This document shows positions 23,973 through 60,857 of a DNA stretch of 64,000 nt, piece after piece; positions within the stretch are counted from its first letter, which is position 1; every line of letters begins with the position of its first letter. Under the pieces are notes generated by a model, which worked only from the letters and a program-made list of their open reading frames with translations, did no database searches and was not told the DNA's origin. Origin of the DNA: Clostridia bacterium (GTDB lineage Bacteria > Bacillota > Clostridia > Christensenellales > Borkfalkiaceae); the NCBI GenBank assembly GCA_017624285.1, contig JAGANI010000009.1:1-64000 (forward strand), read 5' to 3'. The position numbers and the translations under genes were made by a program.

Positions 23973-24767
23973 ATGGGTAATTTATTAGCAGAGAATTTTT
24001 CAAAAGCATTTAATTTTAATTATATTTTTAGCAACTTTAAAGAGTTTTGGTATGTTTATACTGCAATTTTGGTTGCAGTAGTTGGTTTGGTTTGCTTATT
24101 TATTTTTAAAAAGCAACCTAAACACAACGGTTTTTCAACTGCGCAAAAGGTTACTTATATTGCAATCTTAACGGCGTTATGTGCTTTTGCTAATATTTTT
24201 GATTTTAGTATTTCACAAAGTTTTCAAGTTTCGTTAGTTGCTACCGTAGGTTTTATTGCGGGTTACGTGTTTGGCGCTAACAGGGCTTTTGCCGCTTGCT
24301 TTATTGGGGATTTAATCGGTGCACTTATCAATCCTCACGGTCCTTATAGTCCTATTATTAACTTTGCTACTGCGCTTTGGGGCTTAATACCTGGTATAAT
24401 CTTCCATAACTTTAAGTGGAATAAGGTAGTTAAATTAGTAGTTTCTTACGCTATCGGTTTAGTAGTTGCAAGTTGCTTAGTAAATACTTTTGGTATTTGG
24501 TTTATGTACGGTAATTTAAGTGAAACTTATACCTTCTGGGCATACCTTGTAGCGCACTTACCGTCAAGTGTTGTAAACGTAAGTATCAACTTAGTAGTAT
24601 CCTTCTTACTTATGACTGTTGCCACGGCAATACGTAATTACGTTTACGGCAGGCGTGGGCAAAAGATTGAAGCTAGTACCGAAAGGTCTTCAGAATATTA
24701 CTCTAAATTAGCTGAGGAAGAGCGCGAAAGTAAAGTTGCCACCACCAAGGCTGACGACGAGGATTAA
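23973..24767 (+). CDS. folT: ECF transporter S component, folate type
   Basis: A 264-residue polytopic protein (about six helices) of the ECF substrate-binding family. It has the alanine-rich helix LTALCAFANIF and the GYVFGANRAFAACFIGDLIGALINPHGPY loop seen in folate S components. It would bind folates and dock to a shared EcfAA'T module encoded elsewhere. The THF riboswitch in its leader fixes the substrate class. An unusually long N-terminal membrane extension (about 1-60) and an acidic C-terminal tail are present. The folA-thyA operon at 35-36 kb uses the same cofactor pool. Confidence 0.88.
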   Translation: MGNLLAENFSKAFNFNYIFSNFKEFWYVYTAILVAVVGLVCLFIFKKQPKHNGFSTAQKVTYIAILTALCAFANIFDFSISQSFQVSLVATVGFIAGYVFGANRAFAACFIGDLIGALINPHGPYSPIINFATALWGLIPGIIFHNFKWNKVVKLVVSYAIGLVVASCLVNTFGIWFMYGNLSETYTFWAYLVAHLPSSVVNVSINLVVSFLLMTVATAIRNYVYGRRGQKIEASTERSSEYYSKLAEEERESKVATTKADDED

Positions 24768-58733: not shown

Positions 58734-58757
58734 GGCTATCAATTGATAGCCTTTTTA
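58734..58757 (+). terminator. intrinsic terminator of pfp
   Basis: GGCTATC/GATAGCC stem, loop AATT, T5. The T run is also the first part of a 65-bp direct repeat. Confidence 0.85.
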
Positions 58758-58816
58758 TATTGTCTTTTTCTTAAACTCTAATTGATTTTTGACGGCAAAA
58801 TACTGCAAATTACCGT
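58752..58816. repeat. 65-bp direct repeat, copy A
   Basis: Starts TTTTTATATTGTC, ends ATTACCGT. A second copy lies 183 bp downstream (58935-58999), with differences at only about six positions. The 349-bp gap between pfp and phoA also holds an AGGG/CCCT hairpin (about 58840-58853) between the copies; I see no gene in it. Confidence 0.75.
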
Positions 58817-58934
58817 GCGTTTTATTCGGTTACAGACCTTAGGGTATGCGCCCTCATAACAACGCTTGTCCTTTTTGTATTTTACTTGTCAAAACGCAAG
58901 GGTGCTAATCAATTATACTTTTGCGACAAAGACT

Positions 58935-58999
58935 TTTTTATATTGTCTTTTTCTTAAATCCTAATTGATTTTTGACGGCAAAATATTATAAATTACCGT
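58935..58999. repeat. 65-bp direct repeat, copy B
   Basis: Near-identical to copy A at 58752-58816. Ends 23 bp before the phoA stop codon, so it lies in the phoA 3' untranslated region. Confidence 0.75.
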
Positions 59000-59021
59000 T
59001 GGTTTATTTTGTTATAAATTA

Positions 59022-60182
59022 TTACTCTGCATAGAGTTTGTTTTCTACGTATTTTTTAGACAAGGTAAATACGTCTACGTTTTTAATGCAATCTTCTAAA
59101 TCGTTATAGGTGGGTAAGGTAGTTAAATCTTCTAAAATAGGACTATAACAGAAAAGTTTAACAAAGCTTGCCGTATGGTTGGTAGAAGTCCAAGCATATG
59201 AAAATTTTGTATTAGAAGTAGAAGTGTATTGGTTTTGGTACAAATCTTCGTTAGCGTCAATATAAAGCCCACCGGTTTCGTGGTCGGCAGTTATTAAAAC
59301 TAAAGTGTCTTTTCTATCGCCTATCCAAGATAAAACTGTTTCAACCGTGTCGTTTAAGCTGTTTACCATATTAACAGCGCCTTCAAAATCATTACTGTGT
59401 GAAAATTTATCCACGTGCGCTTGTTCAATCATAAGGGTAAAGCCGTTATCGTTGTCAAGATAGTTTAACGCAAAATCAGTTGCTTCTTTTAATTTTACGT
59501 TACCGCCGTTGCCTTCCAAATTGATTAAGCCGTAAAGTTTGTTAGCGTTTTTGTTAGAAGCAAATTGACTAAAATCATCTAAAACGGTATAGCCGTTGTC
59601 AGCAATTAAACCGTAGTAGGGTATATAATCTTCACGATAATGGCCAACTAATAGGTCTATGTTAGATTGCATTTGGCTAAGCGTTATAGTAGCCCCGTCT
59701 GTGCGTGAAACTGCATGACCAGAAAACCCGCCCGGTGTTGCGCCGTCAAGATAATCCGTAGTAACTATGCCAGTCTTTTTGCCTTTTTGCTTTGCTATAT
59801 CTAAAATTGTGGTCAAATCTTCCTGATCAGGGTTTTTACCAACGTAACCGTTTATAGTAAGCGTACCCGTAGCAAGTGCCGTAGCGCTTGCGGCAGAGTC
59901 GGTTGTAACGGTAGGTTCACCCAACGCCGTAACGGAATTGGTATTTACGTCGATTGTTTCCCACTCTCTAAAACAAAAGGTCTTGTTAAAAGCGTATTCA
60001 CCAGCGGTGATATGGTTTGCACCCATGCCGTCGCCGATAATTATAATAACGTTTTTAATTTCAGTTGGGGTAGGTGGTGGGGTGTCCCCATCGTTATCTT
60101 TACAAGATATTAACCCAAAACAAGACGTCAAAAGTAAAACTAGTGTAAGTGCTAAAAGTGATAATTTTTTTAAAAATCTCAT
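59022..60182 (-). CDS. phoA: alkaline phosphatase, probable lipoprotein
   Basis: 386 residues. Residues 1-21 are a lipoprotein signal (LLLTSC, acylated Cys 21 likely; a second SC is at 26-27), followed by a Pro/Thr linker. The PhoA-type catalytic core has IIGDGMG (metal ligand D51), TTDSAASATALATG with nucleophile S96, and ITADHETGG and TNHTA zinc ligands. It releases phosphate from esters outside the cell. Reads leftward behind a long leader with its own terminator. The immediate ribosome site is weak (CGGGA), and no promoter is visible between the leader terminator and the start. Confidence 0.93.
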   Translation of the reverse strand: MRFLKKLSLLALTLVLLLTSCFGLISCKDNDGDTPPPTPTEIKNVIIIIGDGMGANHITAGEYAFNKTFCFREWETIDVNTNSVTALGEPTVTTDSAASATALATGTLTINGYVGKNPDQEDLTTILDIAKQKGKKTGIVTTDYLDGATPGGFSGHAVSRTDGATITLSQMQSNIDLLVGHYREDYIPYYGLIADNGYTVLDDFSQFASNKNANKLYGLINLEGNGGNVKLKEATDFALNYLDNDNGFTLMIEQAHVDKFSHSNDFEGAVNMVNSLNDTVETVLSWIGDRKDTLVLITADHETGGLYIDANEDLYQNQYTSTSNTKFSYAWTSTNHTASFVKLFCYSPILEDLTTLPTYNDLEDCIKNVDVFTLSKKYVENKLYAE

Positions 60183-60204: not shown

Positions 60205-60231
60205 AAAACAAAAATGCCGGTTATCCCGGCG
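60205..60231 (-). terminator. minus-strand terminator in the phoA leader
   Basis: GCCGG-GATAA-CCGGC followed by ATTTTTGTTTT on the minus strand. It lies 23 bp before the phoA start, so phoA expression requires readthrough. Confidence 0.8.
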
Positions 60232-60386
60232 TAAAAAAATCTATTTATTCAGTTGTAGCCTGCTTGCGTTCAACCCTTTGCGTTATTGTGTTTTGGCTAA
60301 AACTGATTTCCATCCTAAAAATCTAAATTTTTACGCGTTAGGCTTTTTTGAGCAGGCGGTAAAACTTTTAATCGGTCTGTACCTCC

Positions 60387-60419
60387 TTATTTTCCGATAA
60401 AATTAATTACGTTGTTCAT
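60387..60419 (-). CDS. ten-codon ORF in the phoA leader (possible leader peptide)
   Basis: Encodes MNNVINFIGK. The ribosome site AAGGGGG lies 8 bp before the ATG, stronger than that of phoA itself. The predicted pseudoknot partner ACTCC lies between the two, and the stop codon falls in the loop of stem 3. This arrangement would let ribosome occupancy influence folding. Confidence 0.4.
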   Translation of the reverse strand: MNNVINFIGK

Positions 60420-60542
60420 TGGAGTGTCCCCCTTAAGGTTATTTAATGGATAAACTATCGGACTCCATCCCGATTTTGTTTAGTTTATCTTAGATTAACG
60501 TAGTGCGTAATTTTTATTTGCGTTAACCTTATCTTCAATTAC

Positions 60543-60571
60543 ATTGTACAATACAAAAAAGCGTTTGTCAA
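60543..60571 (-). promoter_or_regulatory. consensus promoter of the phoA leader
   Basis: On the minus strand TTGACA (60571-60566), 17-bp spacer, TACAAT (60548-60543). Confidence 0.85.
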
Positions 60572-60615: not shown

Positions 60616-60676
60616 TTGACATCGGGTTGTATTTATATTATAATAAAAAGGTAAGGGTCAAAAAACCCCTTTTTTT
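60616..60676 (+). ncRNA. promoter with immediate terminator, cassette 1 (predicted ~25-30 nt RNA)
   Basis: TTGACA at 60616, exactly 17 bp, TATAAT at 60639: a perfect consensus promoter. The predicted RNA starts near 60651 and enters AAGGG/CCCTT plus T7 (60653-60676) at once. Confidence 0.6.
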
Positions 60677-60784
60677 ACGTGTTTTTTGGGCAAAATAGCC
60701 ATTTATTAATATGCAAAACAACTAGTAAAATACTAATGAATTTCAACAAAATTATTAAAAATAGTAAAATTTTAAAAAACCATA

Positions 60785-60847
60785 TTGACAACCGTTATAA
60801 TAATATTATATAATAAAAAGGTAGGGGCAAAATAGCCCCTTTTTTTT
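60785..60847 (+). ncRNA. promoter with immediate terminator, cassette 2 (predicted ~25-30 nt RNA)
   Basis: TTGACA at 60785, 18 bp, TATAAT at 60809, then GGGGC-AAAATA-GCCCC (60824-60839) and T8. It shares TATAATAAAAAGGTA with cassette 1. Confidence 0.6.
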
Positions 60848-60857
60848 ATAAAAAAAG

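Follow-up and report, generated by a model that had tools for sequence, protein, structure and literature searches.

A candidate structured RNA family carrying Shine-Dalgarno/mini-ORF modules, found upstream of a phoA-like gene in a Clostridia bacterium

The locus studied here lies on the minus strand of the window, the whole 64-kb stretch of DNA that was analysed. A sigma-70-like promoter, TTGACA-17-TACAAT, is found at 60571-60543 (-), matching the consensus at 11 of 12 bases, and places the expected transcription start near 60536 (-). From this point a free-standing structured RNA of ~330 nt, delineated by its fold, its homologues and a covariance-model match, extends from ~60536 to ~60206 (-). 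Its folding energy is -71 kcal/mol compared with -57.7 kcal/mol in dinucleotide shuffles (z -2.97), with 1 of 100 shuffles folding equally well. The RNA ends in an intrinsic terminator (60230-60206, -), GCCGG-GATAA-CCGGC followed by a T-run, where the stem-loop itself (60230-60216) is modest, with 5 G-C pairs. A phoA-like alkaline phosphatase gene (59022-60182, -; PF00245, E=4e-39), a neighbour outside the conserved unit, starts 23 nt past the RNA end with its ATG at 60182, and no other sigma-70-like promoter reaching 9/12 is present on the same strand between the RNA promoter and phoA. The promoter, the structured transcript, the terminator shortly before phoA and the lack of another visible phoA promoter all agree with the original prediction made from this DNA.

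Several further elements surround the locus. Between the structured RNA and a PHP gene sit two similar units (60616-60679 and 60785-60848, both +). Each has a TTGACA-17/18-TATAAT promoter without mismatch, then immediately AAAAAGGTA, and ends in an intrinsic terminator. Their 43-nt common part is 84% identical, and the predicted RNAs are only ~35 nt long. The 60785-60848 unit is separated from the PHP gene by a further promoter-like site, and the loci compared showed no evident similar copies. On the other side, between phoA and a phosphofructokinase-like gene, a 71-nt direct repeat (58752-58822 and 58935-59005) is 90% identical.

The 5′ part of the RNA is composed of modules, each with a Shine-Dalgarno (SD) sequence. 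Module 1 (60472-60455, -), CGGGATGGAGTCCGATAG, is degenerate and was aligned by eye with module 1 of the homologues; its AUG (60468-60466) is the start of a frame of 9 codons, MESDSLSIK, that is poorly spaced from the Shine-Dalgarno. Module 2 (60434-60387, -), recognized in the sequence and by a module scan of 26 homologues, consists of the SD AAGGGGG, a hairpin, CCAAUG and the mini-ORF MNNVINFIGK (60419-60387, -), whose UAA abuts the next SD. Module 3 (60388-60371, -), AAGGAGGUACAGACCGAU, follows the family-wide pattern with a perfect 8-nt Shine-Dalgarno and lacks an AUG. The 5′ strand of helix P1, GCCUGCU (60357-60351, -), begins 31 nt past the start of module 3 and pairs with AGCAGGC (60264-60258, -), positioned immediately 5′ of the tail. 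Enclosed by P1, over 60342-60274 (-), and delineated by class A comparison (see below) are the inner helices P2 (60342-60340 with 60276-60274; weak in the window copy, pairing in the other class A members) and P3 (60336-60333 with 60283-60280), together with hairpin P4 (60332-60327 with 60322-60317). The conserved tail, ACAACUGAAUAAAUAGAU (60256-60239, -), has counterparts with 0-3 mismatches to ACAACUGAAUA in 26/26 members, in a search that tolerated up to 4. Two further pairings had been drawn, a 9-bp stem GATAAACTA/TAGTTTATC and a GGAGT/ACTCC loop pairing; both can be written in the window sequence and neither is seen in homologues, the GGAGT/ACTCC similarity arising because the module GGnGG...CCAAUG is repeated.

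Homologues were sought among genomes of the same bacterial family. BLAST returned a single distant match outside the window's genus, in G266, with 72% identity across 117 nt (E=4e-9). The core pattern AAGGAGGTAYAGACCNAT, with one mismatch allowed, gave 35 matches in 398 genomes versus 4 for the reversed control; on inspection, many of the 35 also have a promoter upstream and, further down, ACAACUGAAUA(AAUAGAU) and a terminator. Three members (alignments A1, A2) did not suffice for a model, and A3 took their place; its ten members were used to build the sequence-only model R1, which added further homologues. Members were recognized by an SD module and a tail at fitting distance, using promoter and terminator as a check; weak R1 matches (E ~1e-4 to 1), for the most part background, had to show both an SD module and a tail to be retained, and g5 SD-like matches in prophage or tRNA contexts (L124-L129, L132-L135) were left out. 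The accepted members come from at least 26 genomes in 5 of the 18 genera of the bacterial family: the window's genus (G000, the window, and its sister species G001), three further genera (G265, G266; G284, G285, G287; G205, G216) and a large genus with 17 genomes (G342, G343, G344, G346, G347, G348, G349, G351, G352, G353, G354, G357, G360, G361, G362, G364, G371). The RNA is single-copy in the window's genome. The best promoter-like sites in the homologues match 10-12 of 12 consensus bases in 23/26 and 8/12 in three g13 members, a terminator follows the tail in 24/26, and predicted RNA lengths across the 26 members are mostly 250-380 nt, reaching ~480.

A covariance model, R2, was then built on P1, P2 and P3 from five members in two other genera (G265, G266, G353, G357, G360), with the window excluded. 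Its sole significant match in the window is 60388-60241 (-) at E=1.8e-10, the next being at E=1.5, and it also finds the sister-species copy (E=3e-8). Among 71 genomes of the order outside the bacterial family, the sequence-only model gave nothing better than E=0.0036, and the RNA family looks lineage-restricted, at a model sensitivity too low to prove absence elsewhere. Two SD-module RNAs in genus g4, L122 (G130) and L120 (G091), both at ~1501, are possibly distant members and were not counted; one has two modules (MFFKATKGNRR, MYNSN), and the other lies just downstream of an Hsp20 gene.

Class A comprises seven members (the window, G001, G265, G266, G353, G357 and G360). In 7/7 the last SD module starts 31 nt before P1, which ends 0-3 nt 5′ of the tail. 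P1 variants keep their pairing (GCCUGCU/AGCAGGC, GCUUGCU/AGCAAGC, GCUUGUU/AACAAGC, GCUUAUC/GAUAAGC), and the same is true of P3 and P4, where the sequence differs and pairing is kept in 7/7. In class A alignment A5, 97% of cells are paired and 7 pairs show double changes, a level reached by 0/500 shuffles, and sliding the partners by 1-3 columns lowers pairing to 22-47%. Alignment A4, which includes the window and covers P1 and P2, gives a result of the same kind (90% paired, 5 pairs). P1 positions were first picked by eye, and duplexes chosen by RNAduplex offer a less biased test: across the 26 members the mean energy is -18.7 kcal/mol with a member's own 3′ strand versus -11.6 kcal/mol with the strands of other members, the own strand being best in 13/26 and among the top five in 23/26. 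Class B, formed by 14 genomes of the large genus, has an extra hairpin with the loop (G)UAAAGAA in 12/14, whose stem varies in sequence and keeps its pairing (97% own versus 45% cross, a contrast inflated for eye-picked helices, for which the RNAduplex and the A5 shuffle and slide tests are fairer). A pairing of the tail (AACUG) with CAGUU past the module was seen in several members, proved inconsistent and was dropped. Judged from these alignments, the helix P1 covaries strongly. The long-range GCCUGCU/AGCAGGC helix described in the original prediction is real, and the covariation across homologues suggested there as a check is present in class A, in P1 and in the inner helices.

Known RNA classes do not account for the locus. 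At gathering score, the 4227 Rfam models returned one hit in the window, a THF riboswitch (RF01831, 23834-23925, +, E=4e-14), and none at the RNA locus. The riboswitch lies upstream of a gene for a 264-aa membrane protein (23973-24767), plausibly a folate transporter component, in an ordinary arrangement. Relaxed Rfam scans of the window region and 11 homologous loci gave sub-threshold matches only, at chance level, in keeping with the earlier view that the RNA belongs to no known class. Specific candidates were also considered. For tmRNA, there is no RF00023 match at the locus, ARAGORN finds no tmRNA over the window, and a separate tmRNA scores above cut-off in 9/10 RNA-carrying genomes; the window's own assembly, which is incomplete, has no tmRNA above cut-off. 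RF00013, the 6S RNA model, has matches in 2/10 genomes; one of the two exceeds the cut-off, and both lie elsewhere than at the RNA locus. The repetition of AAGGAGG in small hairpins recalls a protein sponge of the CsrB/RsmZ type, in which repeated AAGGA motifs bind CsrA, but a CsrA homologue (PF02599) is absent from 8/8 RNA-carrying genomes in searches that included positive controls, making this reading very improbable. A phage or plasmid origin was rejected, as pattern scans of viral contigs and BLAST against phages and plasmids found no homologue; the inspected matches were chance, and the 32 matches of one viral scan, tested solely for a downstream tail, had one in 0/32. Literature searches of partial coverage yielded no description of the RNA, and a prior listing in the human-microbiome candidate set of PMC8040213 is possible. 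We regard it as highly probable that the locus belongs to a family of free-standing, structured RNAs that Rfam lacks.

The original prediction had assigned the RNA to phoA, as a cis-regulatory element sensing phosphate or another metabolite. Such a cis-acting leader (a riboswitch, attenuator or leader-peptide attenuator) would bypass its terminator conditionally and express phoA by read-through, a possibility to which the 23-nt distance, the terminator stem of only 5 bp and the lack of another visible promoter lend some weight. However, the RNA was found in none of 23 phoA-homologue loci of relatives, the sister species included, and R2 had no match at the phoA loci searched. Among the 17 other RNA copies for which flanking ORFs were listed, 0/17 are beside phoA; the neighbours are varied, the next gene is mostly convergent, and no common function of downstream genes, as expected of a cis-leader, emerges across genomes. 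In addition, the terminator stems of most homologues are longer than that of the window copy. A cis-acting phoA leader is accordingly quite unlikely. Given its absence from all 23 loci with phoA homologues, phoA is best called a neighbour, of which the RNA is probably independent as far as sequence comparison goes. With a modest terminator and no other promoter in sight for phoA, read-through from the RNA promoter into this gene is possible in the window's genome. The earlier proposal is therefore partly supported: the structured RNA is confirmed and its reading as a phoA riboswitch or attenuator is not upheld. The outcome that had been named as refuting it, a separate stable RNA, fits the comparative data. 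As a lesson for annotation, a structured RNA upstream of a gene need not regulate that gene.

The genes that do adjoin the RNA differ among lineages; where no Pfam search supports a name, it comes from reading the sequence. The G266 copy has a lipoprotein gene on one side and, on the other, a convergent gene for an FAD-dependent oxidoreductase, and the g11 copies lie beside lipoprotein and FAD-oxidoreductase genes. Copies in G284 and G287 are downstream of mreB-like genes, the copy in G205 adjoins a PEP carboxykinase gene, and those in G357 and G360 are near amino-acid-kinase and mnmG-like genes. Class B copies are divergent from a RimK-like ATP-grasp gene (L207 3866-4795, L145 444-1340, with equivalents in other class B loci) and in several species have Hsp20 and HtpG genes nearby. 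Ribosomal protein S6 is the substrate of RimK proper, and a link between RNA and ribosome through this neighbour is conceivable, as a weak hint only.

Modules occur throughout the family, and each RNA carries 1-4 of them. A module starts with a strong SD, frequently the AAGGAGG that is complementary to the 3′ end of 16S rRNA, and continues with a hairpin of 3 bp, CCAAU(G) and a short frame. In the module scan, nearly all members have SD and AUG at good spacing with an open frame; mini-ORF lengths are 2-23 codons, MY and MW being the shortest, and stops often fall at the next SD. ORFs of 2-3 codons stand behind a strong SD in G001, G353 and G360, with longer ones elsewhere. These frames would suit a small mRNA in which the mini-ORFs encode functional micropeptides and the remainder is untranslated region, and some residues do recur across members (MNS, MY, ..LHNK/LHTK). 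Against this, no conserved mini-ORF peptide was found among close relatives: synonymous/nonsynonymous differences in close pairs are 0/3, 1/9, 0/14 and 0/8, and frameshifts separate G205/G216, G265/G266 and G347/G371, though the RNA stays alike. ORFs as short as MY and MW, the last module, which in 7/7 class A members (the window included) has lost its AUG and retained its SD, and the strong structure outside the ORFs also count against a small mRNA, which we consider unlikely. On the evidence of these sequences, the RNA appears to be made for ribosome occupancy and not for protein production. Conserved translation starts with unconserved products are unusual for free-standing structured RNAs.

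How a ribosome might act on the RNA is suggested by the position of P1. The last mini-ORF contains the 5′ strand of P1 in 19/19 members of classes B and C, and P1 would therefore have to open for a ribosome to translate this frame. In class A the distance from the AUN position to P1 is ~15 nt, which puts the helix at the edge of a ribosome that is initiating. We tentatively propose, as the likeliest of the readings but at somewhat less than even confidence, that a ribosome on the last module competes with P1. Here, a 30S or 70S on this module would cover or translate the P1 5′ strand, and on this geometry occupancy and P1 folding would be mutually exclusive, because P1 lies in the last mini-ORF or at the initiating-ribosome edge. 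The tail and the folded domain would then have a trans-acting role, with an RNA or protein as their target, and the RNA would be a sensor or sink of translation capacity, not a peptide source. More speculatively, and on balance doubtfully, ribosome occupancy may be the conserved function of the RNA class, the arrays of near-perfect SD starts with throw-away mini-ORFs forming a ribosome counter or parking place that sets the fold of a trans-acting domain; if so, the RNA would be a free-standing sensor of free 30S subunits or initiation status that needs no downstream gene. Counted against a ribosome mechanism is that the downstream gene in the window's genome is co-directional, without another visible promoter, and the strong SDs could be a by-product of purine-rich structure. 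The RNA might also be a trans-acting base-pairing sRNA, with the single-stranded tail ACAACUGAAUAAAUAGAU or the purine-rich modules as its seed and ribosome binding incidental. Its own promoter and terminator, a tail kept in 26/26 members and modules kept even without AUG are consistent with this reading, but the SD modules suit ribosome function better than a generic seed, and we hold it to be credible and rather improbable. Taken jointly, a new free-standing family and a ribosome-binding mechanism stand at about an even chance. Should the fold depend on ribosome occupancy, bacteria would have here an RNA device reading translation capacity directly; at minimum, it is an additional RNA family that is supported by covariation and can go to R-scape and Rfam.

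Comparison with known systems places the RNA near several of them. Like translation-controlled leaders (attenuators and leader peptides), it ends in an intrinsic terminator, and formation of a downstream helix would depend on a ribosome at a short ORF; unlike them, it has no conserved downstream gene to control. It shares with raiA, ROOL and OLE, free-standing structured bacterial RNAs whose function is at best partly known (cf. PMC12286853), its own transcription unit, a conserved structure, a patchy distribution and no obvious target gene. The window RNA differs in having no Rfam match to any of the three and in its tandem Shine-Dalgarno/mini-ORF modules. We know of no such modules in raiA, ROOL or OLE. 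With dual-function and peptide-coding sRNAs (surveyed in PMC5521070) it has in common a short RNA with an SD and a short ORF. In contrast to these, the peptides here are unconserved, there are several frames per RNA, and the last-module start is absent in seven members. In lambda bar-type minigenes, very short ORFs behind a strong SD occupy ribosomes without useful product, and members with a strong SD ahead of such ORFs, as G001 with MY and MW, resemble minigene RNAs in this respect. A regulatory minigene is also found in axe-txe (PMC8708949). The present RNA departs from minigene RNAs in that it is free-standing, many of its ORFs have 8-23 codons, and its modules are followed by a large domain that covaries and by a conserved tail.
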